This document shows positions 18,464 through 63,704 of a stretch of 64,000 nucleotides of DNA, piece after piece. Numbering within the stretch: position 1 is the first letter of the stretch; each line of letters begins with the position of its first letter. The stretch spans positions 7,965,335-8,029,334 of the forward strand of contig OZ026601.1 of assembly GCA_964020085.1 (NCBI GenBank), read 5' to 3'. A model generated the notes under the pieces. The model searched no databases and was not told the origin of the DNA. It saw only the letters and a program-made list of their open reading frames with translations. A program made the position numbers and the translations under genes. This stretch comes from Micromussa lordhowensis. Lineage: Eukaryota > Cnidaria > Anthozoa > Scleractinia > Lobophylliidae.

Positions 18464-18722
18464 TCAACTCCATTAGTAGTGTGGATGGTCGTGTTGTTTC
18501 TATGGAAACGGATCCAGATTTTACAAATACCTCCCATCCATCTTGTTCGCTTATTGGCAGATCAGTAGTTAAAGATGAGCAGCCGATGGAAGAGGAAAAG
18601 TGGAAATCACTTTTACAAGGTAACCTGGAAGAGTTTTCGGAAGACCAGAGAGGACAATTTTCGTCTCTAGTAACGGAGTATGAGGATATCAATTCGAAGG
18701 ACAGCTCTGATTTAAGAAAATC

Positions 18723-19362: not shown

Positions 19363-20379
19363 CCAGTGCCACTTAATGTGAATAAGCTTCAAACCTTCCT
19401 TGGACTTGCTCGCTATTACAGGAAATTCATCCTTGGGCTTTCCATCACCGCCGAACCTCTGTACCAGCTGTGTAGGAAGGCTGTGTCGTTCAGTTGGCAA
19501 CAGGAACAACAGAAAGCATTCGAGGAACTGAAAGGCCGTCTGATAAGCGCGCCAGTGCTAGCTTACCCCAATTTCAGTCCTGAGGCAGGGTCTTTCATAC
19601 TTGACACTGATGCAAGCCAGTACCAGGGAACTGAAGCAGTTCTATCTCAACAGCAGTAGGATGGGACAGAGTGGGTGATTGTTTATGGTAGTCGCTCCTT
19701 GAACGAACATGAAAATAATTATTGCACCACTCGGTTGGAAATGCTTGCTTTAGTGACGTATGGTTGAGGTTTTTTAAAGAGCCTCAAGGGCAGATGGCTC
19801 GTTGGCTTGAACGATTCCAGGAGTATGACTATGAGGTACAACACCGGCCAGGAAAGCAACACAGTAACGCAGACAGCTTGTCTCGGTGGTCTAGGCGATA
19901 TCATGGAGAATGCCCCTCATGTGCTCCATCTGCAAAGCCAGAGGTAGCAAAGGTCACCAGCAGGCTGCCACATGGTCATAATGACGATGAAAAGGATCTG
20001 TGGTCATTCGAGAATGTGGCACAAGCTCAAAGTGAGGATCCTGATACTGGCCCAGTTGTAGATCAATTGTTCCGGAAATGGAAGAAACCAACCGATGAGG
20101 AACTTCGACTCTTGAGTCGACCAACAGGAAAAATTTGGGCGCAATGGGAACTATTGGAGCTACGCCGAGAAAGAGTACTTTATCTGCGGTCACCTGAAAG
20201 AGCCCTGTCAGCGAAGACTGAGGATGGTCTTACCTCAGAAACTTGTTAAAGAATCGCTCATGGAAATTCATGATGGCTTAGCAGGTGCCCACTTAGGAAG
20301 AATGAAGATTCTGAAGAAGATGGTTTTGGAGGCCAGGTTTGACAAAAGAAGTTCATCGGTATTGTAGCAGCTGCCTGAC

Positions 20380-25431: not shown

Positions 25432-25615
25432 TGTTATGTTGGTTTAAAAGGTGTCTTATTTCGAGGAATTCTGCTATCTGAACAGTTCTTGTATTAGAAT
25501 AAAGTACTATTGTTACGTTTTTTAGTTATTCGAGAGATAAATTCACTCTTTCGTAGCAAAACTCAGTGACAGATGTTTCTGCTGGTTTCCGGCCGCCAGT
25601 TGGTGCCCATGTACA

Positions 25616-25649
<34 letters not shown>

Positions 25650-25734
25650 GTAAATTTTGGGAAAACGTTTCTTCGCATATCTTCCATGAGAAAAATTGCT
25701 GTGATCTGAATCTCGGCTAGAGTCTTTGCATATG

Positions 25735-28154: not shown

Positions 28155-28440
28155 GGTTTGAAAGTGAAGAATGATCATCGCAGTAGTTAAGTTAAGCAAC
28201 TGGAAAGTTAAGCAATTGGAAAGAAGAAGCCTGAAAAAAATCAGGGTTTCAACGGATTTCGAACCGTGACCTCCGCGATACCGGTGCGATGCTCTACCAA
28301 CTGAGCTATGAAGCCACATATTGGGAGCGAGGTCTTGACCTCGCTCCCAATGTAATGATCATTCTTCACTTTCATCTACAACCGTGATGATCATTCTTAA
28401 CTTTCATCTACAACCGCAGTTCATATATATGAATTATTTC
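28155..28440 (-). mobile_element. tRNA-derived SINE and flanking hairpin
   Basis: Includes the tRNA-like head (28244-28315, minus strand), a perfect hairpin GGGAGCGAGGTC..GACCTCGCTCCC (28323-28348), and two tandem ATGATCATTCTT..TTTCATCTACAACCG units. Block 2 lacks this stretch near 38940, so it was inserted after the duplication or lost from block 2. Confidence 0.65.
28244..28315 (-). tRNA. tRNA-like sequence (Thr-like, GGT position), head of SINE
   Basis: On the minus strand it reads as a cloverleaf. The acceptor GGCTTCA/TGAAACC has one C-A mismatch. The D-arm is GCTC..GAGC, box B is GGTTCGAAATC, and the anticodon loop CCGGTAT puts GGT at 34-36. The loop has C rather than T at position 33, and the anticodon stem has mismatches. 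It is embedded in a repeat, so it is probably a SINE head and not a working tRNA. Confidence 0.6.
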
Positions 28441-29851: not shown

Positions 29852-32800
29852 ATGGCTCATAAACATTTTGAGACTGGATATAGGAAGTACTTCGGTGATA
29901 TCTTAGACAACGTATCAAGTGCAACAACACAAGAAGAAATAAAAGAGGTTTATGCCAACTGGGCGAGCAGCTATGATGAGGTAAACTTCAGTAACAAATA
30001 ACACGCTGGGGCTAAACCATCCGTCAAATGTGTCATTCATGATCAGTAGTTGGTTCTCCCTTTAGCCTTTTTTTTTGTTTTTAATTTAATCTTAGTTTTC
30101 AGCATTGGCTACCAGACCAACAAGTAACGTATGGGGTATTAGTCTAGTATTTCCTTATAAAATTATTTCGACAACAATGATGAGGTCAGAAAAGGTATAA
30201 CGTCATATGCAACAATCTCTCGTGGTTAACCGTGGAATATTCTACTTGTCACTTTTATTTTCCTGGTTTACACACTCGACTAAAAGCTCGTGTGCATGCT
30301 GAGAAAATATTAGTGACTTGTGGTATATTCCATTTTAGTATCACCCAACTACATAGTGGACTAATGCAAATCCTGCATTTTAATTCGCTACGCTACTCGA
30401 GGACTATTAGCAATAGTCCTCGAGCGCCATCGAGCTTGACGCTTTCTTTCGTTTTAGTCCAAATGAATATTTCTTCAACTTACATTTGCTAACTTTCTTA
30501 TTGCCATTTCTGTCCGACTAGTTGGGTGATACTAAAACAATTAGACCCTTTGCCCCCAAGGGCCACGAGTAAATAGCCCATTCGGCTACGCCACAGGTGC
30601 TATTGACCCGTAGCCCTTTCGGACTATGGGTCTAATTGTTAAGTATACCATACCATAACTAGTCTGTATTGTTCATTTGACGTAGCCACAGAACATGAAA
30701 CCGACATGATCGAGGGTTGGTTAGCAGTTTTCGCAAGGTCGTATATAAATGACTTGATTCCCTTTAAGCAGACAATTGGACAATGAACGTGAACAGAAAC
30801 AATATTCCCAGCCGCAAAAATAATAACAGCTTCTCTACTATTACGTTTAGGCTCACGAAAGCCACTTCACTTTGGAAAACTAGTGAACTATTGCAATCTT
30901 CTTCTCTTGTAGAAGCACTGTCTAGCTGAAATTGTTTACCAGAAGAAAATGACGCAATATCTGGATGATACCATCAAACAGGTTCTTAGAGGAAAACCAA
31001 AACATGAAATCAAAATAATGGATGCCGGAGCAGGTACAGGGGAGGCTGGAGTCGAACTCAGTAAACTCGGCTACACTAACCTGCATGCTCTCGATATCTC
31101 ACAAGAAATGCTACAGGAAGCAAAGAAGAAAAACGTGTATAAGAAGCTCATCTGCGCCGCTTTGAATAACCAACGGATTCCTGAGATTGACACAGGAGAG
31201 TTTGACGCGTTGATTTGCTGTGGTACGCTGGTGCAGGGGCATGCGAACTCCGATGCTTTCGTGGAGATGATTAGGATGGTCAAAATTGGTAAGTTTTTTT
31301 TTTCTTTTTTTATCTCCTATGGCTAACGCTGCCTTAATGCGGACTGTGTCATTGAAAAAGTGCAAAAAAAAGTGAGGTCGTAACGAACCCAACCCCTTAT
31401 CATCGATGCCCATTTTTACTACATCTGCCATCGCACTCCAGCACCCAGTCTGTACACGATTAACCCTGAACTAGGCTTGGTGTGAAAAGAGTTCATGCTA
31501 CAACAACAATACCGTTTTCTTTTACACGTCGGTACTTTTGTCGGATTATAGTATTCGGGAAGAAGACTGCAAGTTAGCAAGATAAGCGGCCAGAGGGTTC
31601 CTTTAAAAAAAAATCAGTTACCAGTCCGGGATCGTTATCAGTTTTGATAACCATGTGACGTCACAACATGGCGGCCATTTCAAAAATCCGGAATTTTCGT
31701 ATTCACTTCGCTTTGCTCGTTATTTTTTCGATTATACTCGGGTAATTTACCTATAACTCCATTTGATAAGTGCCAGGAAGGAAGGAGCCCCGCGTGGTTT
31801 GAAGATGGCGGTTGAAGAACATCCTAAACGGTATAAATGCTACTCGTAAAGTGAAACAGCGCTTGCAATTTTGCATCCAGATCAGGTATGTTTTTCATTT
31901 TGTCATTAGATTTAAGTTACTTGCAGATTTTTGCGGCAATCACAAAAAATATGTCGTTAATCTTCACGATATATTCTTGGGATTTAACTTATTTCTAGTG
32001 TTGTTCACGATCTGTGAAAAAAGTGCACGGGGCTATTTTGATTTGCGATGTGTTGTTCGTAACGGCGGCCATATTCACATCTGTAATTGATGTGTTCCTA
32101 GTATTGAGATGGCGGATGCGGGTACCCACAGAATTAAAATAGCAAATCTATGTCGATTTTGTGGCAAGACTGCGTCTTCAAAAAAGACGTTCGCAAGACC
32201 CAAAGAAAAATTAAGCTTGAATTCGAACGACATGGTGTCAATGTTGAAAACGACAACGACTTTATTCATCCTTCTAATGTTTGCCCGACGTGTGACGTAC
32301 GCAAGGATAATCGTGCTCAAATAAGCATTTTGACGAGTGTGTGTCATGCAGAGGTCGGTACCAGCAGTACAGTTTTACAAAGAGATGAGAAGCTTGCACC
32401 AAGGTAATGCAAATAACATGTATCACTCCTCACCACCTCCAAGCATTGTTTTTTTGAAAACAACTGGTCAAATATTTGTGGTCCAATGTGGGCATAATGA
32501 AAAAATACCCCACAAGTAGGTACTGAAGAGTGGGTAGAATATCCCATACTATGAAGAGAAAGCCCTCCTCCAGTCATGATAAAGGGAAAAAAATTATTTT
32601 AATTTATCACATTACTCAGCATTTTTTTGTATGTGCATGTGCAGACACCCATTTAGAAGACCTTGAATTTTTTAACGACATCTGGGCGCTTGCATTGGAT
32701 TGTTAGCAATGCATGTAGAAGTGCTGCTTATTATTGGCTGACTTAATCTTACTTAATTTTAATTACATTGACAGCAAATGGCTCGAGAGATTAGAGGAGG

Positions 32801-40741: not shown

Positions 40742-43438
40742 ATGGCTCATAAACATTTTGAGACTGGATACAGGAAGTATCTCGGTGATATCTTAGACAA
40801 CGTATCACGTGCAACAACGCAAGAAGAAATAAAAGAGGTTTATGCCAACTGGGCGAGCAGCTATGATGAGGTAAACTACGGTAACAAAGCACACGCTGGG
40901 GCTAAACCATCCTTTAAATGTCCATCACTTTAGGCAATGTGTGTTTTATCGTTTGCCTTGATTCGAAGTTCTGTGTAAACTACCAGACACACAAAGGCGG
41001 CTTGTAGAGTTTACAAACATTTCTACCATGTCATAGAAACTACTGCCAATCAGAATACAGGAAACCTTTGCATATTTGACGCTATTAAATCTAACCTTCC
41101 CATCATGCGCCGCGCGTGTGTCGCAATGATTGCGCCGTGTACATTGTATTTTCTATGGCTTGGTATAAAATAGCTATGCAAAGATCCCTCGTGGTAAACC
41201 ATGGAATGTTCTACTTGCCACTTTTATTTTCCTGGTATACACACTCGATAAAAGCTCGTGTGCATGCTGAGAAAATACTAGTGAATTGTGGTTTATTCCA
41301 TGGTATATACCACATACCATAACTAGTATGTATTGTTCATTTCACGTAGCCACAGAGCATGAAACCGACACCACCGGGGGTTGGGTAGCAGTTCTCGCAA
41401 GGTCGTATATAAATGACTTGATTCCCTTTAAGGTGGCCGAACACAGTTTTCGCACGTGCTTTTGTTGATGCAATATTTAACACGTGCACAAGGATTTCAC
41501 AAACATGCCGACAGTAGAGCGATCATTTTATTTACTCAACACCCGCACTATCTGTGTCAATTTTCTCTATAATTGAACGCAGTGTATTGATGGCTTTAGT
41601 CTTTTATTACAAAGGTATGCTAGAAAAGGTAACGATGCAAAGAACCCAGCAATTTTCAGGTTTTGTTTGTTACCGAAAGAACCCAGTTAAATCCAACGCA
41701 TGCGCATTTGCTCGAAAAATTGAGACTGATTGCTTTAGCAGAATTAGAAACATGCCGATTTCTAACGATCCAGTCGCAAGATAAGTAGATCAGAGACCAC
41801 GTGAATGATCTATCAAAAAACTCTGAATTTTGACATAGGGGATTTTTAATAATACAGAAAACGATTACCGGCGAATTACGAAAATGTCAAAATTTTATTA
41901 GAACCGTGTTGACAGAAGGTATTTAATATCAATTCTTAGAGTGCCAAATATAAAAACAATCTAACGACTGGATCCTTTTTAAATAAACAAAAACCATTAT
42001 TTAAGCCTTGTTTTTAACCAGCCCCATTGCCATGGCAACATCACACACCCTAGTCAAAATGTGAGAATAAATACTTCTGTAATCAACCTTGACTCTTGCA
42101 AAAAATGGGCGCCAAAGCATAAATAGTTTAAGAGTTATGGTGAATTAGACATAGGCACTTGAAAACTGTGTTCGGCCACCTTAAGCAGACAATTGGACAA
42201 TGAACGTGAACAGAAACAATATTCCCAGCCGCAAAAATGATAACAGCTTGTGTACTATTACGTTTACAAGCTCACGAAAGCCACTACACTTTGGAAAACT
42301 AGTGAACTATTGCAATATTCTTCTCTTGTAGAAGCTGTGGCTAGCTCAAATTGTTTTCCAGAAGAAAATGGCGGAATATCTGGATGATACCATCAAACAG
42401 GTTTTCGGAGGAAAACCAAAAGATGAAATCAAAATAATGGATGCCGGAGCAGGTACAGGGGAGGCTGGAGTCGAACTCAGTAAACTCGGCTACACTAACC
42501 TGCATGCTCTGGATATCTCACAAGAAATGCTACAGGAAGCAAAGAAGAAAAACGTGTATAAGAAGCTCATCTGCGCCGCTTTGAATAACCAACGGATTCC
42601 TGAGATTGACACAGGAGAGTTTGACGCGTTGATTTGCTGTGGTACGCTGGTGCAGGGGCATGCGAACTCCGATGCTTTCGTGGAGATGATTAGGATGGTC
42701 AAACTTGGTATGTTTTTTTTTCTTTATTTATCTCCTATGGCTAACGCTGCCTAAATCCAGACTGTGTCATTGAAAAAGTGCAAAAAAAAAAGTGAGGTCG
42801 TAACGAACCCAACCCCTTATCATCGATGCCCTATTTTACTACATCTGCCATCGGACTCCAGCACCCAGTCTGTACACGATTAACCCTGAACTAGGCTTGG
42901 TGTGAAAAGAGTTCATGTTACAACTGTCAACCCAAGATACCGTTTTCTTTTGCACGTCGGTACTTTTGTCGGATTATAATATTCGGGAAGAAGACTGCAA
43001 GTTAGCAAAATAAGCGGCCAGAGGGTTCCTTTAAAATAAATTCAGTTACGTCATGTTGTTTTTCCCTGTTTTTAAAAATCTTGGCACGTGAAGCCAAAGA
43101 ATGGGATCATGTTTTGTCTTTTTTTTGTCCAGTTTGTTAAATGAAGCAAAATTATTAAAACCCGCAAAACGGTTAATCTTTTCCATTTATTGTAAACTGG
43201 ATCAGGAAATCAATCTTTATTCCTCACTTATTCTGTTGTTTTATATTCCCCAGATGGTCTTCTCTGTTTTAACATACGAGTCACTGAACTCGATCTTTAC
43301 CAGGAAATGATGTTGGAACTTGAGAAAGCGGGGAGATGGAGCTCATTGTCCAAAAAGCGATTGCCTTTTTCCACAGCCGACGACATGCCAAAGGAGACCT
43401 CAGCGTTTGTGTACAAAGTTCTCAAAAATTATGAATAG
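40742..43438 (+). CDS. METTL27-like methyltransferase, copy F (complete)
   Basis: Exons are 40742-40870 (MAHKHFETGYRKYLGDIL), 42332-42707 and 43254-43438. Introns are phases 0 and 1, with donors GTAAAC and GTATGT and acceptors CTTGTAG and CCCCAG. The protein is about 229 aa, ending VLKNYE because the stop differs from copy E. Motif I is IMDAGAGTG, and the exon 1 block is YANWASSYDE. It is the youngest paralogue of copy E and the reading frame is intact. Intron 1 is lengthened by a 749-bp TTAA element. Function is inferred from METTL27: a small soluble SAM-dependent methyltransferase, substrate unknown. The same AAGG-ATGG context precedes both start codons, with an AG that may mark a 5'-UTR intron. 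Confidence 0.92.
41432..42180. mobile_element. TTAA-flanked DNA transposon in intron 1 of copy F
   Basis: A 749-bp element. The perfect 20-bp TIR GGTGGCCGAACACAGTTTTC is flanked by TTAA at 41428-41431 and 42181-42184. Copy E intron 1 has the empty site with one TTAA at 30764-30767. No transposase is present, so a piggyBac- or Kolobok-type helper is presumed. Confidence 0.9.
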
Positions 43439-44515
43439 TTTGGAGAGGCATGCATGAAAAACATGTCTTGTTTGTAGCTCTTTCGTAGATTCTAGATTTT
43501 TTTATCAACGTGAATAATAATTTTTCATTTGTGCTCTGTGTAATTAGGAAATACGAACATGTTTTCTTCGTCTTTGTTTTCTAAGCCATGACGACGATTT
43601 CAATCACCGATAGCGTAAAGATCTGGACTTTGTTTTTACTTCAGACATGTTTCAATCATAACTCTGTAATTCTAACAGACGAAATAAGTCGGTTTTAGGA
43701 ATTTAAACTGACTACGAATTGTCTCTATTTAGATGGCGTTTTGATCATCTTGTCACGGGAGCATAAGACAATCTTTTCAAAATTCACCCGATCAATAGCT
43801 CGAAAATGACGGAAATTGTCGACATCATCGGCTGACTCAAAGGTGTTGTAGCTCAAAGGTGTTGTAGGTGTTGTGACTCAAAGGTGTTGTAGCCATTTTC
43901 AAAATCCGCGATTATCACCCGATCAATAGCTCGAAAATGACTGAAAACCAGTTTGAACTCTTCAAATATAGTTTATGCTCGATTCGTTGCTACTTTACTG
44001 ACTAAAATAAACAATACAGCCAACCCAAGGTGGCTTTTATTTTCGTTTTTCTTTATTATTTTTGTTGTGGCGAAGGGAAGGACGGGTACGTGGCTGAGCG
44101 AAAAGATCGTGAAACTGGTGTTTTCGGCTCAAATCAGGTCTTTAATTTTTAAGCTTGACATGTAGGGCAGGGTATTTGATTGGCCGTTATTAGTATAAGC
44201 TGCTGAGTTGCTCACCCTCAAGGAGTTACCGATAAAAACAACATTGTTTTTTGAAGGTCTTATAACAACAAAAGCAGAGGTCAATTTCCTGCTCTAAAAT
44301 GAAGCCAACAATGGTCTTGAAAGTTATTGTCCTATAGCGTATCTTGTCTTTTCATCTTCCAAATCACTAAGAGACGTCCTATGAGGCTGGGAGAGCTTCC
44401 CGGTCTTTGCTTGTTAATTCGCGATTCCTAGACTCAACTAGACGCATCATCAACTGAAACATCAAAAAAAGAAGTTCTGGAAAATCTTCTCTTCAGTTAG
44501 GCTGACTCCATCTCC
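43439..44515. other. Intergenic; short tandem words
   Basis: The words TCAAAGGTGTTGTAG (three times, 43837-43893) and ATCAATAGCTCGAAAATGAC (twice, 43791 and 43922) form a small local duplication. No gene was seen. The GPCR promoter should lie at the right end. Confidence 0.5.
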
Positions 44516-45499
44516 ATGAATTTCACTGTTGGATGTGGCAACTCGTCATACAATGCCTTCCTTCTTCAAGATCTTGCTGTCGTGAAAACTTACAGCCCAG
44601 CCCTTTTGGTCATTTTCTGCGCCGCAAACGTCGTGTCGGCAATCGTTTCGAGCTTTGGAAACGCATTGGTGTTGATAACTGTTTGGAGCTTCTCCGAGCT
44701 TCACATTTCTTCTAATATTGCCTTAGCCAGCTTGGCCGCGGCGAACTTTTTCGAGGGTTTGACCGTACATTGTTTTTGCGCTGTTGGAGTTGTCGCTGTT
44801 ATCCAAGACGACTGCCCTTTCTCAAGGCTAAGCCATGTTATTGCCCTCTACTTAACCAACGCCTTCGTGTACAGTGCCGTTCTGAACCTCACCCTCGCGA
44901 CACTTGATCGTTACATCGCTGTGATCCATTCCCTTCGCTACCACGTGATTTTGCCTCAGCAGCGCATCGTCAAACTCACCATTGCCGTCTGGTTGAGCAG
45001 CCTGCTCGCCAGTGTTCCATTTCTGATTGACGATTCCGTCGTTAACGACCGATGTCAAAACGTCGTGTCAGCGACGTTGTTCTTGGCACTTGCTGCCATA
45101 TTTTATTTCAATTTTAGAATTCATCGTCTTTCCAGAAGACAACGGGAACTAGTTCACTTGCAACTGCAAGCGATGCAGCAATTGCCTGTCGCGAATCAAC
45201 AACGACATCGATTTAAAGGCGCAAAAACAATGCTTTTTATTTGCATGACTCTTGTAATTTGTTTTGTCCCAGCTTTAATAGCAAGACTTGTAAACGTTTC
45301 GTCAGACGGCATGGGGATCAAGGTTTCATTTATAAGACCTTGGAGCACGTTTTTTTTCGGACTATATTGCAGTATAAGTCCTTTCATTTACTTTTTCAGA
45401 TGTAGAGAGCTTCGTAAATATACCAAGAAACTGTTTCGTCGTATTCTAAGTTTTGATTGTTACGGGTATTTTAAGTTCTTAGTGTCAAACTCCCAATAG
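44516..45499 (+). CDS. Rhodopsin-like (class A) GPCR, divergent, single exon
   Basis: An intronless frame of 327 codons from ATG at 44516. The N-terminal tail has N-glycosylation sequons (NFT, NSS). TM1 carries the GN pair (SFGNALVL). TM2 reads LASLAAANFFEG, so the usual Asp of LAxxD is replaced. A Cys precedes TM3, whose end motif is DRYIAVI. A long third intracellular loop is rich in Gln, Arg and His. TM6 is CMTLVICFVPAL, without the Trp of CWxP. TM7 reads SISPFIYF, so NPxxY is SPxxY. Both residues that normally hold the sodium ion are thus changed. The short C-tail has Cys residues that could be lipid-modified. The fold assignment is firm. The ligand is unknown, and signalling may be unusual. 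Confidence 0.88.
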   Translation: MNFTVGCGNSSYNAFLLQDLAVVKTYSPALLVIFCAANVVSAIVSSFGNALVLITVWSFSELHISSNIALASLAAANFFEGLTVHCFCAVGVVAVIQDDCPFSRLSHVIALYLTNAFVYSAVLNLTLATLDRYIAVIHSLRYHVILPQQRIVKLTIAVWLSSLLASVPFLIDDSVVNDRCQNVVSATLFLALAAIFYFNFRIHRLSRRQRELVHLQLQAMQQLPVANQQRHRFKGAKTMLFICMTLVICFVPALIARLVNVSSDGMGIKVSFIRPWSTFFFGLYCSISPFIYFFRCRELRKYTKKLFRRILSFDCYGYFKFLVSNSQ

Positions 45500-47389
45500 A
45501 AATTCGCTTCGTTGTAAAAGAGTTGCCAAATTGATTAAAAATTGTCATCGGATTTTAACGCCATCATCCATGCATAGGGTGATAATTAAAGTGAAGGGAA
45601 CAGTATTGTTTTGGTGTTCTTAATGTATTTTTTTTCTTTTTTTCTTTAATTCATTTATTTATTGTTTATCTAATTTTTTTCTTTTATTGTTTTGGTTTGC
45701 ACATCACAAACAAACTTACTTAATGAACAAACTGTATTTTGAGGGAATTTTTCTGCAGATTCATTTCGTTCCGTCTTCCCAAAATTTCTCAGTCCAATGT
45801 TCCAAAATTTGTCAAATTGTTATGCAATTCAAGTATACATTTGCATAATCTGTCAACGCCTCAATAGTTCCTTTTATTACGAAAGAATTATTCATTACCG
45901 GTCACACAACAGCGGCGTCTTACGGCGAACTTATCGCCAAGAAACTTCTGCGGCGATTGCTTGCCTTTTTGTGCGGCGGAGACTAGTCACAAAACCTTCC
46001 CTGGCTTAACGGTAAGCTTTTTATGTTACCTATCAGTCTACTATCTCCTTTGAACGAACAGTTTGCATTCGCGACTGTAAAATATTGAGTCAACACATAC
46101 TGGCCTGGAGCCGCACTTAGACCACGTGTTGGAATAGACTTGCCTTTGTTCTCAATTCTACCATTTCTTCTTTCGTTATCTCTCCACCAGGCCATAAGAA
46201 ACGTAGTAAAGACTTCGTAAAGCGTAGTCAATCTCAAATGATCATTTGTGAAGGACTTACGGAGCGTAATTTGGCTAAAACATCAACCAGCATACATAAT
46301 GTGGTAATTTATGCTTCGTCAAACAGACGTGTTTCCATGAGTGTTTATAATTTCAATGGCATGTTGACGCCGTTTAATTTATAATTATTTTCCTTAAGAT
46401 TCGTTGACAAATACTGTGACGGTAAAATCCGTTTCTAAGTTCCGCCTAGATCTTTTATGGGTACTAAGTTTTCTTACCCTTATGCGCGTGGATCTGACGT
46501 CGATTTGCGTGAATCGCGCGCGAATTGTGTGAAATGTAAAGATCGTTTTCACGTGACGTCAGCACTCTCTAAACTCTAAAACTAACGATCCACCAAAGTT
46601 TTCATCCTCATCAGGTATAAGAGGTGACATATTTATACCTGTTTACAACTTTACAGCTCAATAGCGTTCTTCGTTTGGAAACCAGAGCATTTTGACTTTA
46701 CGAGTTGTGGAGGTGCGTGACACAAGGCCATGATCAAATTTGTTGAAAAATATATACTTATCTCATGATTTTGAACCCAGTTAGAAGCTAGAGCATTAGG
46801 AAAAGTGCTTATGTAAATACTTGTTTCTTCAGTACTGGTAATCAGTCGCCTAGAAAGCCAAAATAAGTTCCAGATGTTTACACTATTTTCCGGCCGCCAT
46901 ATTGATGTACCATGGAGGTACACCAACATGGTGTTTTCATACTGAGCTCTGTAAATTTCTGCGAAACATTTCGACGAACATCTGAAGTTTGGGGAAACGC
47001 ACAGGGCTAAAACTTGGAGAAGTGTCTTATTTTTTATCTTCTATAACATCACAATTTCTTAACTTTTTCCACTGGATAGTTCTCGATTTATTTTTTAATT
47101 GCGTGACAGTGAAAACGATCTATTTACCCTCTTTTACGTGTCCACACTTTAGAAATAATTATAATCACTTCTATGTTTTTTTCTACGTTTGATGCTCTGA
47201 GTCCTGTTTTAAATAGTCTACCTTATGCAGTGGCCATCAACAAACTAATAAGCTAAAGAAAATAATTTGGAGTTCGAAGGATTTTGATTGGGTTCCGCGA
47301 TCGATGACAATCGAAGGATCGGAACTCGAACCCCGATCAGGACCGCGTCTGCCCTGCGAGCAGAGGTCTCTTCGATCTTCCTAGATGAT
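45500..47389. other. Intergenic; possible 5' region of the snoRNA host gene
   Basis: Near 45980-46012 a pyrimidine-rich stretch (TTGCCTTTTTGTG) is followed by CTTAACG and then GTAAGC. This would suit a 5'TOP-like start and first-exon donor of the host gene downstream. It is only a guess. A palindromic repeat fragment lies at 46,885-46,990. Confidence 0.3.
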
Positions 47390-47710
47390 GCCACACTAAT
47401 CCGTCACGAAAGCGGAGTTTTCCGAAAGCGTTCTTCATACCGGGGGAATTTGAAAACGCCGGCTTTTCGTTTTTAGCGTGGACAGAAGACATTTTAAGAA
47501 CGAAGCTTTTCGAAAACGAAAACAATAGTCATGATATTTTCCTGCCCGAGTTTTGCTCGAACATAAATCCAAAACAACTCGGTGATTTAGTGTTGCGTTT
47601 TCAAATTTCTCCGGCTCAGTGTAGACGGAAAACATTTGATGAGTTTTCAGAGTGAAACCCCCGTTTTAGTATTTCTCCGGCGTATCGAAAACGCTAGAGA
47701 AGTCACGTAG
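47390..47710. repeat. Dispersed repeat (pair with 12460-12810)
   Basis: A diverged second copy of the element in copy C intron 1, sharing TCCGTCACGAAA, CGGAGTTTTCCGAAA and CATTTGATG in the same order. It lies just before the first snoRNA copy, where a host exon would be expected. Confidence 0.6.
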
Positions 47711-47847
47711 AGAGGGAGCTTGCAGAATATAGAACTATCAAAATTATCACAAAAAAACTGGTACAGCCAGCTGTTTTATGTTATAGAATTAATATCCTTC
47801 AGGGTCGAGAGCATATTTCATGCTGGGTTGATATTCATTTAGCAAGA

Positions 47848-47977
47848 GCACGGCTATCGCCGGGAGGCGGTCCTCAGTCCGCTCGTCCCATCTCCCGCTG
47901 TGCTACAGTAGAGCCCAGTCTTCTGAGTCGACTCAGGATCAATAGTTCCTTTGTCGAGAATTACACCTGGCACATAT
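47848..47977 (+). ncRNA. H/ACA-like snoRNA, copy 1
   Basis: 130 nt. The 5' hairpin uses GCAC/GTGC and CGGGAG/CTCCCG. Box H is ACAGTA. In the 3' hairpin, lower stem CCAG/CTGG and upper stem TCGAC/GTCGA plus AGGA/TCCT enclose an internal loop. Box ACA is at 47972-47974, three nt before the end. There are 14 nt between the upper stem and ACA, as expected for a pseudouridylation pocket. No adjacent host exon was found upstream. Confidence 0.75.
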
Positions 47978-48508
47978 TTTAGTTGTAAACCAAGTATTAG
48001 TGTGTTTAGGCTGATCATGGCATGTACGCGCAGTTCTGCACTACACTTTTCCCAGACTTTTTCTTGCTAATGCAATACTAAGACTCGGTTAGTTTTGTGA
48101 CTTTTTTTTGGCAGCGAAAGCATCAAGTTACAACTCTCAAAAAGTTCGCTTGGAACGCATGTGGGATTATTGCTTTTACTTATCTTGTTTGTTGCCTAAA
48201 GAGTAGCTTGCCTTCAATATCATTTCAGTGGCACGGCGATTACGTCTTGTTGACGATCATGTTGATTTATTACATGTATTAATTGCCCGTGTCCTTTTCT
48301 TTTTAGCAGTCAACAGCTGATTCCCTGCAAACATGAACGAGCTGTTTGTAGTAAGAATATGGGATGTATAATGTAGAAGAGATTACAGCCAAGGGCGTCA
48401 TAAAGAAATTGTCTCCAACATGGAATACATTGTATCCAAAGCAAGGTAGACGCTAGCTACTGAAATTGCTTTAATTTGATTTGATTTCATGTTTTTTTTT
48501 CGACACGT

Positions 48509-48622
48509 GCACAGCTATCGCCGGGAGACGGTTCCCAGCCGCTCTTTCCATATCTCGCTGTGTTATAGAGCCCAGTCTTCTTATCAGTAGTTCCTCTGTC
48601 GAGAATTACACCTGTTACATAT
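48509..48622 (+). ncRNA. H/ACA-like snoRNA, copy 2 (decayed)
   Basis: The same element with a shortened 3' part. The CTGAGTCGACTCAG block is missing, box H is damaged (TTATAGAG), and stem bases have changed (CATATCTCGCTGTGT). It is 114 nt instead of 130. Probably a pseudogene copy. Confidence 0.6.
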
Positions 48623-48984
48623 CTTAGATGTATTCTATTCACTCGGCCTAGCACTGATGTGGCATATTCACAACCCTGATCTGCCTGCAATCAGTAGATT
48701 CTTTTGAGTCATCGTTACAGATTCGCGCAATTCTGCACGGCTCTTTGGCCACATTTTTTCAGTCCTTGCGTTAGCAAGATCCATTCAGTTTTGTGAAATT
48801 TTATTGGCTGCCAACATGTCCGGTTAAAGGTCTCATAATGTTTGCTTCGTATTTATGTAGCGATATTTTCAATATGAATGTCTTGTCTGTTGTCTAAATA
48901 GTTCGCTCACCTTCAGTATTATTTCCGTGGCAGAGCAATTTGACGGTTGGCAGCAAGTCGTGGATGATCTCAATTTATCAAATC

Positions 48985-49175
48985 TGTAGCTCCATAAAAT
49001 TTCCATACCTCCCCCACGAAAGGGGTCTTGTTCAAGACCCCTCCACCCCTCTGGAAACCCCATTAAGCTTCATAGATTTCTTTAAATTTTTGGTCTTACT
49101 GAAACGGCCTTACCCCCAGCAAAATCTCTTCTGTGGGGGAAGTATGGATATTTCCTGGGACTGCAGAATGCATTT
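48985..49175. mobile_element. MITE inserted between host exons
   Basis: AAATTTCCATACCTCCCCCAC on the left faces GTGGGGGAAGTATGGATATTTCC on the right. The parallel older repeat unit (48060-48310) lacks it. Confidence 0.6.
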
Positions 49176-49438
49176 ATTGCCTGCTTCCTTTTCTTTAGCA
49201 GTCTACAGCTGATTCCCTGCAAACATGGACGAGCTTCTTGTCAGAATGAGAATATGAGATTTAAATCTAGAGAAGATTACAGCCAATGGCGTCATGAAGG
49301 GATTGCTTTGAACAGGGAGTACATTGTGTAAAAAACAAGGTACACACTATACTGAAGGATAGAAAGGTGACTTATTGTTAAAACTGCTTTTATTTGTTTA
49401 CATGTGTGTAAATGTGTCTGTCTTGTTTTTCGTCACGT

Positions 49439-49568
49439 GCACGGCTATCGCCGGGAAGCGGTCCTCAGTCCGCTCATTCCATCTCCCGCTGTGCTACAGT
49501 AGAGTCCAGTCCTCTGAGTCGACTCAGGATCCACAGTTCCTCTGTCGAGAATTACACCTGGAACACGT
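49439..49568 (+). ncRNA. H/ACA-like snoRNA, copy 3
   Basis: 130 nt. Box H is ACAGTA and box ACA is at 49563-49565. The upper stem of the 3' hairpin is TCGAC (49519-49523) with GTCGA (49544-49548). It begins 99 nt after the host exon ending at 49339. Confidence 0.75.
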
Positions 49569-49981
49569 TCCATTCCATGACAGGATCGCGTTTTAAATGA
49601 CATTTCAGTTGCAAACTTCACAGGCGCCGTATTGCTGTGGGATTATTGCATAATCCCATATAGATACCGGCCGCGTTGTTCAAGTTTGCAATCCATCGTA
49701 ACGTACAGTAGTTTTCCCCAGTGGCACTAGGAAGAGCTTGATAGGGGCGCAAGAATCAGCCCACTTCTCAGATATCGGTATATTTTGCATATCCCAGATC
49801 TTAACTATCAGTTACAACTCTCGTCATATTTCAGCTGATGATTAATATTCTAACCAATTTTCAGCTATTAGTTAAACCCCGTCTATGCCCTTATCTATCT
49901 TGGCACAGGTATTTCTTTGATTAGTTTAAGTTCTCAATTTTTATGTAACTTCGTACATCTGATTTATCACTTTAATACTCT

Positions 49982-50561
49982 GACATAGAGTTGAATTTAC
50001 TTCTGAATAGTTTATTTAAAGGAATTTACTTGATTGATTTTTTCAAAGATTTCTATGTAGTCATCTCTTTTGTCTTAATATCTGTAGTGTTCGGAGGCTT
50101 CAAAAGTAACCTTGAATCAAGTTAACGTTTTCTGCCCTTTTTTAATCTTGTTGCAGTTTCCTCTTGAGATACGGTCCTTTGTGAGAGGAAAAAGAAAGTT
50201 GGACAATGCACATCCTCCGGTAAATTCAAAATTCATTTGTTTTTTTGCTTGTTGTTGTTGTTGTTGTTTTCTTCTTTTGTAACACGAAGTCAAGTGCACG
50301 GCTATCGCCGGGAGGCGGTTCCCAGTCCGCTCATTCCATCTCCGGCTGTGCTAGAGTAGAATCCAGTCTTCTGAGTCGGCACAGGATTCACCGTTCCTCT
50401 GCCGAGAATTACACCTGGAACATTTTAAACCAGTTCAATATTTACAGTGGTACATCTTCATGACGCACCGAGAATCTTCATCAGAAATCGCATGACGACA
50501 ATATTTGAGTATTATTTTATACATTTATTTTCCTCTTGTAGTATTAATACATAGCTAAGTA
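49982..50561 (+). repeat. 580-bp tandem duplication, unit 1
   Basis: Starts GACATAGAGTTGAATTTAC and contains one host exon (50157-50219) and one snoRNA (50296-50425). It is repeated head-to-tail from 50562 with few differences. Confidence 0.85.
50296..50425 (+). ncRNA. H/ACA-like snoRNA, copy 4
   Basis: 130 nt. Box H is AGAGTA and box ACA is at 50420-50422. The 3' hairpin stem is TCGGC (50376-50380) with GCCGA (50401-50405), a double change from TCGAC/GTCGA that keeps pairing. The 5' hairpin has one mismatch (CTCCGG). Confidence 0.75.
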
Positions 50562-51135
50562 GACATAGAGTTGAATTTACTTCTGAATAGTTTATTTAAA
50601 GGAATTTACTCGATTAATTTTTTCAAAGATTTCTATGTAGTCATCTCTTTTGTCTTAATATCTGCAGTGTTCTCAAAAGTAACCTTGAATCAAGTTAACG
50701 TTTTCTGTACTTTTTTAATCTTGTTGCAGTTTCCTCTTGAGATACGGTCCTTTGTGAGAGGAAAAAGGAAGTTGGACAATGCACATCCTCCGGTAAATTC
50801 AAAATTCATTTGTTTTTTGCTTGTTGTTGTTGTTGTTTTCTTTTTTTGTAACACGAAGTCAAGTGCACGGCTATCGCCGGGAGGCGGTTCCCAGTCCGCC
50901 TATCCCATCTCCCGCTGTGCTAGAGTAGAATCCAGTCTTCTGAGTCGGCACAGGATTCACCGTTCCTCTGCCGAGAATTACACCTGGTACATTTTAAACC
51001 AGTTCAATATTTACAATGGTACATCTTCATAACGCACCGAGAATCTTCATCCGAAATCGCAAGACGACAATATTTGAGTATTATTTTATACATTTATTTT
51101 CCTCTTGTAGTATTATAGCTAAGTAGACACTTGAC
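50562..51135 (+). repeat. 580-bp tandem duplication, unit 2
   Basis: The second copy of the unit at 49982, containing host exon 50730-50792 and snoRNA 50865-50994. Its right end, near CTAAGTAGACA, is approximate. Confidence 0.85.
50865..50994 (+). ncRNA. H/ACA-like snoRNA, copy 5
   Basis: 130 nt. Box H is AGAGTA and box ACA is at 50989-50991. The 3' hairpin stem is TCGGC (50945-50949) with GCCGA (50970-50974). It begins 72 nt after the host exon ending at 50792. Confidence 0.75.
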
Positions 51136-51618
51136 AAAACAAAAGCAAATTTGAAAAACGCGCTGAGTTTCCAGAGACAACATCAGGCCACATGCAACAG
51201 CGGTCAACATTTCGCGGTTAATAGTGAACTATTTCTCCGTTTGACGTCATAGTTTTCCCAATGTTGCCCGCTCATGGCGTTTGGCGGGAAACAGTTTCAT
51301 TGTTAGATGTCAGGTGACCATGAACTAGCCAATGAATGGGCGCGTTGTAGCGGGAAAAGCGCCAGCTATATAACAATCTGGCGTTTAGTACATGTAATAA
51401 TATAATATTTTATTATCTAGATATCCGTTTTTTTAATAGTCCGATAAATTTACTTATGTTTGTAACTTTACTCTTTCGTTGCAGTTTGCCATAGTCATGC
51501 GAGTATCTTGGTTATCCTGTGAAAGAAAGAGGGAAAGTAGACCGCGTTTAGTCTTTGGTAAGATTTTTGTGTCGTTTTTTGCCAGTTTGTCAAGGCTTCA
51601 CCGTTATTCATGTCACGT

Positions 51619-51748
51619 GCACGGCTATCGCCGGGAGGCGGTCCCCAGTCCGCTCTTCCCATCTCCCGCTGTGCTACAGTGGAACCCAGTCTTCTGAGTC
51701 GATACAGGATCAATAGTTCCTCTGTCGAGCATTACACCTGGAACAGTC
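51619..51748 (+). ncRNA. H/ACA-like snoRNA, copy 6
   Basis: 130 nt. Box ACA is at 51743-51745. The 3' hairpin has TCGAT (51699-51703) with GTCGA (51724-51728), so a G-U pair replaces C-G. Box H reads ACAGTG, differing at the last A. It begins 61 nt after the exon ending at 51557. Confidence 0.72.
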
Positions 51749-52081
51749 CTTAACCTTTTGAATTCCTTTTACGTTTTGTGTATTCGGACAGCTTCTTTCT
51801 TATCTCACTGAGATTTCTGTTCCCACGGATAATGATATCCGAGTGCCTGGTTGTTCAAAACTTTATGGTGGCGTTTTCGTCTGTTTTTCCTTCAGTTTTG
51901 AGTTTGGATAATCTCAAACTACACAAAAAGGCAGAAGCAGTGAAAAATCATTTTTAACCAAGAAAAAGGACATGTCTCGTAGCTCGTGACAACGAGTATG
52001 CCTTGGTAACGAAGCAATAGGTGTAAATAATATTTACGTAACATATACCGTTGTGAAGAAAGGAATATTACCGTCAACTCA
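51749..52081. other. Between snoRNA array and GPCR, no gene seen
   Basis: Convergent region. The 3' ends of the host gene (+) and the GPCR (-) should lie here. No clear AATAAA was fixed. Confidence 0.4.
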
Positions 52082-55000
52082 TTATCCATTACTTGCTTGT
52101 CTTTCCTCAAGGTCTGTCACGCGAGTTTTCATGCACAACATCCGTCTGACTTGGTCACGGAACTGACTGTGTCTGAAGCCATAGATCCAAGGGTTTGTCA
52201 CGCAACTTATGCTTATGAGAAAGGCTGCTGCCAGGTCAACTGAATCAGGAATGTTTCCAATCCGTGCCACGCGTAAGAAATGAATCACGCAGATTGGAAT
52301 CCACGTGATAATGTAGACTCCGATGAGTAAGAGAACAGTCTTCGCCAGTTTAACCTGGACAGCAAAGAAATGAAAAACAAAAAACACAATGGTGTGAATG
52401 TTTTTCAATAAATTAAGTTGAACGTCTGATTTGTGCCGTTGTAGTTGAAATCGACAGCTTTCACTGAACTACAATCTACAATCCACAGAATTTTTTAAAA
52501 CTTTGCCAAACGTTGTATCTTATCATGCTTATTATAATTCGATAATAAAAAAATAGGGGTCACCGAGCTCGTTTTTGAGTTATAAGCGCTCAAAGCTAAA
52601 ATTAAGGGCGTTTTTAGCAAGTCATATTGTTGCTATGGTAACCTATTGTGCCACAAATTTGACAACAACATGTTTACCAATGATTGGGCAATTTTTTCAT
52701 GCAATGATTTTGGCGTCAACCGATATAGAGTGGTTATAATGATCCATCAAAGTCTACGTCTTGGAAAGTGCTGGAAACTGTTTTGAGCCAGCTTAAATGA
52801 AAAATTAATTTTCAATGATGGAAGTTGATCATTGATTCGGGGGAAGGGGTGCTTTTATTTTTTATTTCATTCTGGCGAAGATTTCAGTTACGTTTTGGTT
52901 TTCATTGCCAATTGTATATACGGCTGTTTCGAGAAAAGTTGTCCAACATGTACAACAACGAACAACCCAACCTGAAAACGTAGGCGATGATGTTAAAAGG
53001 TGTCTTTGGTGATGGTGGTTTACTGTTTTAAAGTTATCAGCATGTTTATTCATGTTTTCTCCTTCTTTCCTCGCTGAAACAACGTGAACCTCAATCAGGC
53101 AAAGCCAAACTATTACCCATAATGCCAATGAATCGGCATTTTCGGGTACGCTCTCGCTCTTGTGTACGCTCTTTCGCCGCTATACTATTAGTCCTGTATG
53201 ACGAGACTCGAATTTGGTAAAGGGATTATTCGGTAAAACGGATACCTTCACGTTTCTGTGCATGCGCAGGGTATAGCTTGGAGAGCTGCAGGCAAGGGCA
53301 GTATATATTAATTCAACCCGGGAAGAAAAAAATGGTTGATTGTTTTATAATCTAGCGTCAAAAGAACTACCTTAACTAGCTAATCAGAACCTTAGCAGAA
53401 TGCAAACGTGTTTTTCTTCTATGTAAGGTATAATGTTACGTGTAAAGCCAGTTCCTGGGTAGGCTTCGTTCCCTACAATCATCTGTTCAGTGTTTCTTTG
53501 TCGAAAAAATAATTGGGGGAAGCTCAAGAAACGATATTTCTTTATATGTAGATCTGTGTATATCATATTCTAGAAAACGAGGTTTTACCATCATATTACG
53601 TTGTCGAGCATTAAAACTCAAGATACCAGTAAGTTAGAACACATTTCTTCTTCTCGTTGATTGTCTTCCAGTCAATTTTTAGACACCATTTAGTTTTCGT
53701 AAGACAAGCAAGGAGACAATGAATTAACTACTGAAGGGCTATTGTTTGCTGGATGTACCTGCAGAACACAAACAAGTAGATATTCAGGGGTAACCAAAAG
53801 ATTGTTTTGGTAAATCAACTGTCCGGAAGGATTTTCTGAGAGAGTTGTCCCCTCGAACTTTCGTGATACGAGATATTTAATTTCTTATTTCGGTACGATA
53901 AAAAAGTCACGTACGATTTGAAGACCTAAGGTTTTCGGGAAATGAATGTAAAATATCGTTTTGCTTAATGTACCTCCGGTACATGAACAGGCCGATATTT
54001 CATACATCAGGGATTAGATATCACGAAACTAATTCTACCGTAAGTTTGGCAATGTTCATGATTTCTGGGATTACTTAAAGACCGGTCCTTCTGTTGAATT
54101 CATCTTTCCGACAATTAGCTACAGAGTAATAATAAAAAAAGATTACCCATTAAGAGAACATTCTTAAGTTTATTTCGTACGAGCGTATCAATTATCGACC
54201 GGCAAGTCATTAACGATCATTTCCCATAGACCTCATTCCTTTTAAAAAGGTTTTTAAAAGCCCCTTTAAAAAGAATATATCCCAATACCAGAGAGTGAAA
54301 TCAGTTTATCGTTTGTGCCAAAAGTTTTGAGATTTTAAAAGATGTTAAAGTCGAAAGTAATTTCTTACAAAATATCACACAAATATACAATATTTGCCTT
54401 AGGCTGATACGCATGTTAATATATAATAAAATTTTTCGCTGATTTCACTGCAGATGAGATCTTAAACGAAATGACTGTATTAGTTTTTTAACATGTTATT
54501 TTCTTAAAAAACAATAAACCTTAATCAAAAGACATTTTTCACGTTGGCTTTAAAAGGCGGAAAAAGTGATTTTGCTCATCTTGAGAGCTTTCAGGAGTGC
54601 AATTACTTTTAATCCTCCATCAAGGTTAAAACTAAAAAGCAAATTAAATTACCTTACCTCTTTCTTTAATCTCTCGTTATTCTCTGCACCCATCGATACA
54701 GGCAAACTTCGAACGCTTATCTGGACCACACGTCGCTTGCTTTTCTTCATGGCCAGGTAAATCTTCATGTAGCACCAGATGAGAACGGAAAATGGCGTTG
54801 CAATAAACGCTATCACGAGAAAACTCGTGTAGGAATAACTGCTTCCCACTGCTATGAAACAGGTCGCGCGCGAGGCGAAAAACCCATAGTGACCCCACCC
54901 TAAATTCGGTGGAATAGCAATGGAAACGGCCAGGAACCACAAGGTGAAGAGCATACCTCTTGTCCGGCGCAAGCTGAAAAATGTCGCACTTTCGTTAAAT

Positions 55001-55365
55001 CGCACGATTAAAAAATATCTGTTCACGCTGATAATTGTCACCGACATGAGCGACGCCACCAGAAAAACCAGCGTGTAGCAACCGTTTACACGACAAAACG
55101 TTCCACCAGAAATCCAGCGTCGTTCTACCAGGACGCCCGCGGAGACGGACAGAGTGAAGAAAATCCGGAGCAGATCCGAGATACTGAGATTCACAATCAG
55201 GTAGTTGGGGATTGTTTGAAGATGGCGGTGAGCATACACCATGGCGCACACGGCAAAGTTACCGATGAGACCAAAAATGATCAACAGAAAGACGAAGATG
55301 ACTTCTAGGACTGTCAGCAATGTCGATTGGTCACGTAAAGGAGGGAAAAGCGATGGATCTTCCAT
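52082..55365 (-). CDS. Rhodopsin-like (class A) GPCR, two exons
   Basis: Minus strand, exon 1 55365-54658 and exon 2 52354-52082, joined at a phase 0 intron (donor GAG-GTAAGG, acceptor TGTCCAG). The total is 326 aa. The open frame extends upstream to a GTG, but the first ATG is at 55365 (MEDPSLF). TM1 has the GN pair (LIGNFAV), TM2 NLSISDLL, and a Cys precedes TM3. The DRY motif is NRY (SVNRYFLI). TM4 and TM5 are in exon 1. The intron falls in the third intracellular loop after a basic stretch. Exon 2 has TM6 (IGVYIITWIPICV, with TWxP for CWxP), TM7 TNPWIY and a short tail. The NPWIY ending is seen in opsin- and melatonin/peptide-like groups, but no retinal lysine is evident in TM7, so an opsin is unlikely. 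Ligand unknown. Confidence 0.88.
52355..54657 (-). other. Intron of the two-exon GPCR
   Basis: About 2.3 kb, AT-rich. It contains repeat fragments, such as the GGGGTCACCGAGCTCGTTTTTGAG block near 52556, and a loosely repeated GTACCT..GATATT segment at about 53753 and 53970. No nested gene was seen. Confidence 0.5.
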
Positions 55366-57854
55366 CGATGATCGAGCGGTGTTCAGTTTGACGGCCACGA
55401 ATTGTATATGAATTGGGTCTCGAGATTTATATCCTCTTTGACCACATAGTTTTCCCTTTGTAAACACGAGGTGGAATCTAAAGATTCGCTCTTGCCAAAG
55501 ATCTTGCCCACTTCAATGATTTCGATTAAAAGTGTGACGACGGTAATTAAAAAACGAAAAATAAAATATCCCAACCCAGCTAAGTGCTTTTACACTAACG
55601 GGTTTTTTACGAGATGCCGGTTGTATACAACACGTTGATGAACATTATACGTAAACGACATGCCATAAATTTCATATCTTACCGGTTTTGGCGTCTCTGA
55701 GAGCGAACAATATGTAATAATTGACACCTGCCGGCGGGCAGTAACCATTCTGATTGTTTTCCTTAATTTCTCTCTTCTAAAAGTAAACCATGTTGACATA
55801 CGGTAGCAATGATTTAAGGGCTTGCCGATGCGTCCCATTTACTTAAGGCAGAGAACTGTCACGTTTGATCAAAGATTTGCGAAGACACCTAGTCAATACT
55901 GTGAATATCTACCCGTCTATATCTTTAGACATTGGGTGATTTCAGATGCAAATCGAAATCCAAGACACGGGGAAGAATCCGGTTAGGATATGAGGACTGT
56001 GAAAAGCTAAAATTGTATGATATACGAAGTTTTACGAAAACAATAAATCGGCATCGAAGTAGGCATTTCATTTCTGACGCATCTTAAGCACGCTGAAGAG
56101 GCCTCTTACGAGTGTTTATAAGCTTAGGAAAACAAAAGAATCCGTCCAACCCTTGTTACGAAATATCTGCTAGCAATGATGTTTTCCGTTCGAAGAAAGT
56201 TCAATGCAAAACTTTCAAATGTTACAAGATCTTATATGCAACGTTATATATAGTTTAACGATATAGCTCGAACACATTTCTCTAGAAACTGTGAGCATCA
56301 CTGAAAAATGTGAAATTAGACTCCAAGATCAATCACTTGATTTGTTATGACACAATGCAACGTCATGTTTAGCAGCTGCATGCACTACCGTGCTTTGACG
56401 AATATCAATATCAACAAGGGCAGCATAAAACAGCGACAGAAACAACAAAAGAAACAACAGTAAATGGAGACAACATAAATATTAAACCACAGTAAAAACT
56501 TACAACAGCAACAAGAATAACAGGGACTATAACAGGAAAATGGTAAAACTCCAGCACAAGACAACAATTCACGAGACAGTAACTCGTGCTCCCAAACTGA
56601 ACTACAATTAAAACCAAAGAAAATAAAAGCCAACTTAGATTTTATTTTATCAAGTTTACAATTCTGTTTCAATTACATAACAACAGCTCTTTTTTTAAAA
56701 AAAAATATGCTATCAATATCATAAAAATAGAAAAGTACAAATTATCTAAAAAAAGACCTGAACATGGGATTCTTTCATTACTAAAATTAATCAGCACCAA
56801 ATATTAAAAAAGGCAAATTTTGTGCGCTAGATTTACTCGTGGTGGGTGCATCTAAGGAAAATTCACCCAACATAACTCGATTAGTCCTGGACTGTCGGAG
56901 CCACAGCTCCAATTTGATTTACCGGCGAGCCACGCAACCTTTTGGTGACAAACTGGCAGAACAGCGTCCAATCACTATCAATTCTCTTTTATTGACTAAA
57001 TTCTGAGCTGGAAAAGCTGAACCTTTAATCGCAATGCCTTATGAAACGAAGTCTTCAGTTCTTAGTCAATTACTCACAATTTCACTAATAAACAAATCAC
57101 TGCCGCTTTACTGACTGCAAAAGAGGTTTTCTTTTCTCCACCTAAAGAAAACCTGTCTCAAAAAGCATCTACAGTAAGTCAGTCAGTCGCGACGCGTGTA
57201 CCTCCGCACGCTCGCCAAGCGCCTACTTCACGCGCGCACCTCGCGTTCGTCGCGCAATCTCACATTCGACCAACACTCTATCAAAATCACCTATCCTGGA
57301 GAGAAGCGCGGATCAACGCGTGGATGTCGCGTTCCTCCCTAATTCATAACTTCTGCACATCCTTTTTCGCAAGGAGCGCTCGTCGACCGACTGTTTTGCA
57401 GTCGAACTCATTCACAAAAATAAATCCTTCATTAGCAGCAGATTTTCACTACAAAGTTAAATAAAATCAGCTTCTATTATACAAAACAAAATTCGTTCTT
57501 TTTGAAAATGTAGAAAAATAGACGTATTTTAAACTTCGTGTAAAAATAGATAATTTCAATTCTTTTCACATTGCTATAATGTTTGTCTCACTAACGCATT
57601 TTTTCTGCCTAAAAATCGTTTTCATGTTGAAGTATAAATGATAAACGGACTTGATTTTATTCCTTCGAGTCCAATACTTAACATCTATAAGTTTCTCGTA
57701 CATTTTGGTTATTTCGCCCCGAGAGAGTCTGTTTGCGGGTCAGAAAGTCTTTCCCGAGATCCATTACTCAGATCCATTACTCTCACGGTCATTTAAAGCA
57801 CTTTTAGAGAATTTAACAATCCATCAATGACTGTATTAACCCGCTGGGAGCCCC
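55366..57854. other. Intergenic, no gene seen
   Basis: Contains a low-complexity ACA/CAA-rich stretch at 56430-56520 that yields Cys-rich antisense open frames. The rest is AT-rich without recognised features. Confidence 0.5.

Positions 57855-63704
<5,850 letters not shown>

Follow-up and report, generated by a model that had tools for sequence, protein, structure and literature searches.

What is a sequence unit of about 130 nt doing six times over within 4 kb of a coral genome, and how did it come to be multiplied there? The unit lies in a window of 64 kb from the stony coral Micromussa lordhowensis (contig OZ026601.1, positions 7,965,335 to 8,029,334 of the forward strand), the whole stretch of DNA that was analysed, and all coordinates below are counted from its first base. 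The original prediction took the copies for one family of small nucleolar RNAs (snoRNAs) of the H/ACA type, carried by a non-coding spliced host gene. Geometry, conservation, splice signals and the lack of an open reading frame (ORF) beyond chance support this proposal. We consider it highly probable that the units are H/ACA guide RNAs from the introns of a non-coding, spliced host gene on the forward (+) strand, multiplied by tandem duplication of exon–intron blocks.

All six copies lie on the + strand and together span 47846–51745, which confirms the unit of roughly 130 nt predicted to occur six times on one strand. Intact copies measure 129 nt from the 5′ stem to the ACA. The copies occupy 47846–47974 (copy 1, ACA at 47972–47974), 48507–48619 (copy 2), 49437–49565 (copy 3), 50294–50422 (copy 4), 50863–50991 (copy 5) and 51617–51745 (copy 6). 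Copy 2 is decayed and, at 113 nt, falls 16 nt short of the intact copies, which are 86–92% identical to one another when the recent pair of copies 4 and 5 is left aside. A 17-nt core of the unit, allowing up to 3 mismatches, occurs seven times in the window against 0.04 expected, namely in the six copies and as a single three-mismatch match at 63464. A covariance model built from the six copies, as had been suggested with the original prediction, scores the five intact copies at 157.8–162.2 bits and copy 2 at 94.7 bits, and finds nothing beyond these six in the window at E values up to 10. In the viral contigs searched, the initial 25 nt of the intact unit had no match.

The consensus fold consists of two hairpins with a hinge between them and a single-stranded tail. 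Hairpin 1 combines a lower stem of 7 bp, a pocket of 7/7 nt and an upper stem of 9 bp, copy 4 alone having a 6/6 pocket at this position. Hairpin 2 has a lower stem of 4 bp, a pocket of 9/9 nt and an upper stem of 9 bp. The pocket sequences are TATCGCC/ATCTCCC and TCTTCTGAG/GAATTACAC. In H/ACA guide RNAs, the top of the pocket lies about 14–16 nt upstream of box H or of the ACA. The unit agrees with this rule, its 3′ pocket side starting 15 nt upstream of box H in hairpin 1 and 14 nt upstream of the ACA in hairpin 2.

Every copy had been predicted to carry two hairpins, a box of the form ANANNA and an ACA, and this description stands for most of the array. The ACA is present in all six copies. 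With the hairpins folded apart, the two-hairpin form appears in copies 1, 3, 4, 5 and 6 but not in copy 2, and a strict ANANNA is found in only four of the six copies, as ACAGTA in copies 1 and 3 and as AGAGTA in copies 4 and 5. Copy 6 has the off-consensus box ACAGTG. In copy 2, box H is damaged (ATAGAG at best) and the upper stem of the 3′ hairpin is lost; this copy is probably non-functional or limited to its 5′ hairpin. When the units are folded whole, copies 1, 3 and 4 give both hairpins, copy 3 with two extra pairs. Small Cajal body RNAs (scaRNAs) of the H/ACA type are marked by a Cajal body (CAB) box, UGAG, in the apical loop. TGAG is absent from both apical loops in all six copies, and a Cajal-body type is therefore not indicated; the motif occurs only on the left side of the 3′ pocket, in five of the six.

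How readily would chance supply such a structure? We scanned the window with a generic H/ACA detector, built without this family, that looks for ANANNA, ACA or ATA, two single hairpins and a pocket distance of 13–16. Over 4270 ANANNA sites on both strands, 13 pass. Ranks 1–4 belong to copies 5, 4, 1 and 3, with scores from -47.7 to -41.0 (in copy 1 the detector picked an ATA ending two bases beyond the ACA); rank 5 scores -26.9, and the best score over eight locally shuffled windows is -30.1. With box H relaxed, a scan of the + strand between 45500 and 52500 gives copy 6 a score of -42.8. A search by an H/ACA predictor, also suggested at the outset, thus places the four intact copies with a strict box at the top and recovers copy 6 under the relaxed box. 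The relaxed scan returns one extra match, with its box at 47831 and a score of -41.6, above that of copy 3; judging by its position, it seems to have recruited the first hairpin of copy 1 for its 3′ side, and we regard it as a by-product of the relaxed box. When the boxes were held fixed and the hairpins dinucleotide-shuffled 2000 times, both geometries appeared together in 2, 0, 2, 1 and 0 shuffles for copies 1, 3, 4, 5 and 6, respectively.

The units are conserved more strongly than their surroundings. Across 123-nt flanks of the intact copies, with the recent pair 4/5 again left aside, global identity is 10–43%, no better than the 9–45% obtained with shuffles; this comparison omits the 7 nearest bases upstream and the 3 nearest downstream and uses three upstream-flank shuffles per pair. 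In copies 2 and 3, local alignment carries the similarity upstream through their candidate exons. Among the ten pairs of intact copies, seven local alignments end at the final A of the ACA, those of copy 1 with copies 4 and 5 extend 4 nt beyond it, and that of copies 4 and 5 runs on into a duplicated intron. Conservation therefore mostly stops at the ACA. Within the unit, the five intact copies show variable columns at 0 of 22 positions in the lower stems, 3 of 32 in the pockets and 0 of 3 in the ACA; the corresponding counts are 10 of 42 in the upper-stem regions, 4 of 11 in the hinge and 6 of 16 in the apical loops. The difference between pockets and loops (p = 0.044, Fisher's test) is only indicative, because the sequences are related. 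Taken together, the geometry, the box distances, the shuffle controls, the end of conservation at the ACA and the distribution of variable columns support the interpretation of the unit as an H/ACA RNA.

The way in which the array grew can be read from two duplicated blocks on the + strand, each comprising one exon and one unit. The recent block of ~580 bp is present as two adjacent copies (49982–50565 and 50562–51129) that are 94.5% identical, which makes copy 5 a recent tandem duplicate of copy 4. The older block, 71.6% identical between 48274–48614 and 49168–49560, involves copies 2 and 3, and the 3′ hairpin of copy 2 has been lost since that duplication. A further intron match links 48027–48241 with 48724–48940 at 68%. 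Two duplications of an exon together with a unit are thus visible, and for these steps at least tandem duplication accounts for the growth of the array. Separately, the intron after copy 2 contains an extra block at 48980–49170 (+) that has no counterpart in the aligned intron following copy 1. CCCCCAC and GTGGGGG stand near its ends and it is possibly a small insertion; a search for inverted repeats around ~48980–49170 found none.

A different origin would be a snoRNA-derived retroposon resembling a short interspersed nuclear element, in which case the array would be a chance cluster of dead inserts. The decay of copy 2 would fit this, and the growth of human H/ACA families has been attributed to retrotransposition (PMC8178906). 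However, all six copies share one strand within a single 4-kb stretch, with none elsewhere in the 64-kb window, and the pairs 4/5 and 2/3 were duplicated along with their exons. Lower stems, pockets and ACA are also better conserved than the loops. Direct repeats shared by the near flanks do not exceed 5 nt, and within 60 nt downstream runs of A reach 3 at most, although old inserts could have lost such marks. We therefore regard dispersal as a retroposon as very unlikely.

If the units were instead multiplied within a gene, the + strand should hold exons between them. We infer such exons from splice signals, scored with a generic consensus and ranked among all AG or GT dinucleotides of the window. 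A candidate first exon, its start presumptive, lies at 45966–46011 (+) with the donor TAACG/GTAAGC at 46012 (top 0.6%). The pyrimidine run CCTTTTT at 45964 resembles a terminal oligopyrimidine (TOP) motif. Local GC and CpG content is high there, and the run would be compatible with a TOP-type start, which is common to many snoRNA host genes. Candidate exons on the + strand then precede copies 2 to 6. The exon 5′ of copy 2 (48310–48445) combines an acceptor in the top 0.1% with a weak donor, AAG/GTAGAC. Its homologue 5′ of copy 3 (49202–49339) has an acceptor in the top 0.2%, a weak donor and an alternative donor at 49367. The exon 5′ of copy 4 (50157–50219; acceptor top 0.6%, donor CCG/GTAAAT top 2.0%) recurs as a duplicate 5′ of copy 5 (50730–50792; donor at 50793 top 2.0%), and the exon 5′ of copy 6 (51485–51557) has an acceptor in the top 0.5% and the donor TTG/GTAAGA at 51558 in the top 1.4%. 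All five acceptors, at 48310, 49202, 50157, 50730 and 51485, thus fall within the top 0.1–0.6% of AG dinucleotides. Similarly strong sites occur nearby, for example the acceptors at 50542 and 51111 (top 0.3%).

The 3′ end of the gene is less certain. A candidate last exon, itself uncertain, may lie at 51896–52420 (+), with an acceptor in the top 0.8% and the nearest downstream AATAAA at 52407. This AATAAA is antisense to an open frame on the - strand (52082–52468) that resembles, by eye, the end of an adjoining G-protein-coupled receptor (GPCR). With that frame and the opposite-strand GPCR itself (54652–55512) to the right, the end of the host gene would be placed near 52 kb. Some of these parts have relatives elsewhere in the window. 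The start of the candidate last exon (51882–51965) resembles 1473–1545, and the intron upstream of copy 1 holds repeats, 47392–47661 being similar to 12489–12765 and 46856–46983 to 25555–25682.

Five of the copies had been predicted to follow a GT–AG exon by 60–100 nt, and the exons to keep no reading frame. The spacing holds, with distances from donor to unit in copies 2–6 of 61, 97 (70 with the donor at 49367), 74, 70 and 59 nt, and the acceptors are strong; the borders are less secure on the donor side of the exons 5′ of copies 2 and 3. The claim about the reading frame is borne out: the longest ORF in the joined exons is 51 amino acids, below the 95% point of shuffled sequences (65–82 amino acids across four exon variants). 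The homologous exons 5′ of copies 2 and 3 differ by one 3-nt and one 1-nt gap. The splice signals, the lack of an ORF beyond chance and the tandem duplications of exon with intron fit a non-coding host gene.

Several results weigh against the reading as intronic guide RNAs, and they fall on its different parts. As regards the host gene, the donors at 48446 and 49340 lie outside the top 5% of GT dinucleotides in the window, and no exon was identified immediately 5′ of copy 1. Both points speak for real H/ACA RNAs that are made from their own promoters or from an unspliced precursor, the exons being accidental. On the other side, five acceptors of high rank are found at corresponding positions 5′ of the copies, and in both duplications the paired exons retain GT–AG borders. 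Intronic origin is, moreover, usual in vertebrates (PMC2653536), and one non-coding RNA (ncRNA) gene per intron is given as the animal rule (PMC1821038). On balance, independent or unspliced expression appears quite unlikely to us.

As regards the structure, covariation is weak because the copies are too alike: a single pair shows changes in both partners, and the observed score is reached by 43 of 500 shuffles. Sliding the pairing partners lowers pairing from 98% to 38–49%, a drop that is expected because the structure was derived from the same sequences. Whole-unit folding also departs from the model in some copies. Part of the hinge of copy 5 is sequestered in three base pairs. The copy 6 hinge anneals to the hairpin 1 lower stem at the expense of the canonical 5′ hairpin, so that this copy adopts the canonical form only when its halves are folded apart. 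Copy 2 forms no canonical 3′ hairpin.

Nor do known families claim the unit. No Rfam family reaches its cut-off on the unit copies, and an Rfam search of 45500–52500 with E values up to 10 lists no H/ACA family. Copies 3, 5 and 6 were also searched singly: copies 3 and 6 gave no match at E values up to 10, and copy 5 alone matched SNORA35 (HBI-36, RF00566) end to end with 21.0 bits (E = 0.03), below the cut-off of 39 bits. Further sub-threshold matches of copy 5 were SCARNA21 (E = 0.34), which we take to be an H/ACA scaRNA, TB11Cs4H3 (E = 1.4) and an unrelated viral element (E = 6.6). The likeness to SNORA35, although it is the best Rfam match of copy 5, stops short of the cut-off and is not shared by copies 3 and 6; the matches of copy 5 would thus lend weak support to the H/ACA class and none to membership in SNORA35.

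Finally, no target in ribosomal RNA (rRNA) or small nuclear RNA (snRNA) rose above chance when 11 of the 12 pockets were scanned, with ±1 nt of slack, against human 18S, two parts of 28S, U1, U2, U4, U5 and U6. The pocket left out was the 3′ one of copy 2, whose hairpin has been lost. For each pocket, the best energy (-13.7 to -16.9) was matched or beaten by 50–97% of 30 shuffled guides (an approximate null); because shuffled guides do as well, we claim no target. The pockets were also compared with rRNA from eukaryotic ribosomal DNA (rDNA) inside prokaryote records (loci L003, L004 and L005; L001 and L002 were set aside), where the best energy, taken without a null, was -15.2 and came from the 5′ pocket of copy 2 only. 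Searches with rRNA patterns found no match in the viral contigs searched.

The weak covariation, the aberrant whole-unit folds of copies 5 and 6 and the failure of a target to emerge would all be at home in a tandem-repeat family with chance hairpins and no guide function. This account conflicts with the joint geometry, which arises in no more than 2 of the 2000 shuffles of any copy, with the whole-window scan, which sets the copies apart from all else, and with the end of identity at the ACA in 7 of 10 intact pairs, and we give it almost no credence. A bolder reading would make the array an orphan H/ACA family of the coral lineage, without an rRNA or snRNA target, whose dose was raised by multiplication inside one non-coding host and which is aimed at messenger RNAs or another lineage-specific RNA. 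The imprinted C/D arrays of mammals would be the C/D counterpart of such a family. We hold this to be unlikely.

For the preferred reading, intronic H/ACA guide RNAs in a non-coding host gene, the following course of events can be proposed. The host gene would carry one H/ACA copy per intron, all of a single family. Blocks of exon and intron would have been tandemly duplicated, after which exons and introns drifted and the RNA was kept. Following splicing, exonucleases would trim the intron down to the H/ACA particle, with dyskerin, Nop10, Nhp2 and Gar1. The product would be a stable RNA of ~132 nt, ending three bases beyond the ACA, and its two pockets would guide pseudouridylation. It is from the DNA that we infer transcription and splicing of the array, and the particle assembly and guiding activity of its RNAs.

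The surroundings of the array contain several other genes. GPCR frames of the rhodopsin type flank it on both sides, at 16065–16976 (+), 44501–45499 (+) and 54649–55512 (-). The last of these, with a Pfam match for 54652–55512, is convergent with the proposed host gene. Of the 25 matches of the GPCR at 44513–45496, four carry species names, and all four are scleractinian: Oculina patagonica accounts for three (up to 67%) and Desmophyllum pertusum for one (65%), which agrees with a stony coral as the source of the DNA. Four open frames on the + strand (6758–7177, 12878–13351, 30913–31326 and 42332–42754) are alike by eye and likely form a local gene family; the one tested, at 12878, matches methyltransferase domains. 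A retroelement at 18711–21618 (+) comprises several frames, with matches to a reverse transcriptase (18711–19064) and to an integrase C-terminal part (20737–21618). On the - strand, the region 58164–60174 has a tyrosine phosphatase match at 59698–60174; visual inspection suggests another piece near 58.4 kb, next to a simple repeat that reads SFVRSFVR on the other strand. Rfam identifies one transfer RNA, at 28244–28315 (-).

Both the unit family and its six-fold array look new, while the kind of element, an H/ACA guide RNA, is well known. A survey of Hydractinia, aimed to be the first detailed survey of cnidarian ncRNAs, relied on Rfam, Infernal and tRNAscan-SE (PMC11067881). Annotation by Rfam cut-offs would miss the present family. 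Among the titles and abstract openings listed from an open-licence library, on cnidarian and coral snoRNAs and on clustered snoRNAs, none describes an H/ACA array from a cnidarian or coral, the slash in H/ACA being unsearchable.

Among known systems, several human SNORA71 paralogues lie in SNHG17. The likeness to the coral locus consists in an H/ACA RNA in the intron of a non-coding host, SNORA71A residing in intron 3 of SNHG17 (PMC7559222); the difference is that this Rfam family is not among the unit matches listed. The mfl cluster of Drosophila likewise contains several related copies, one per intron, that arose by duplication (PMC1821038). There, however, multiplication concerns a C/D RNA, present in four copies, and a small RNA of unknown function, present in two; the host encodes the pseudouridine synthase, and one H/ACA RNA is described (PMC1821038). 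In chicken, nearly all snoRNA paralogues are reported to have arisen by intragenic duplication, with six H/ACA RNAs duplicated to give 13 paralogues; yet ~90% of H/ACA RNAs are single there, and the duplicated ones average about two copies, compared with six here (PMC2653536). In sponges, which are non-bilaterian animals, adjacent introns of RPL13A hold H/ACA copies that are 94% identical in Suberites domuncula (PMC3412847). These number two and their host is protein-coding, whereas the coral locus has six and its putative host shows no ORF beyond chance. In human, H/ACA families with at least two expressed members are confined to a single host gene in only 7.3% of cases, compared with 59.5% for C/D families (PMC8178906). 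As far as these sources go, human H/ACA families seldom expand inside a single host gene, but such expansion has precedents in chicken, in sponge and in a fly C/D RNA (PMC8178906, PMC2653536, PMC3412847, PMC1821038). Set beside these systems, the coral locus presents an H/ACA family that has reached six copies in a single putative host through tandem duplication, with old, recent and decayed steps preserved side by side.

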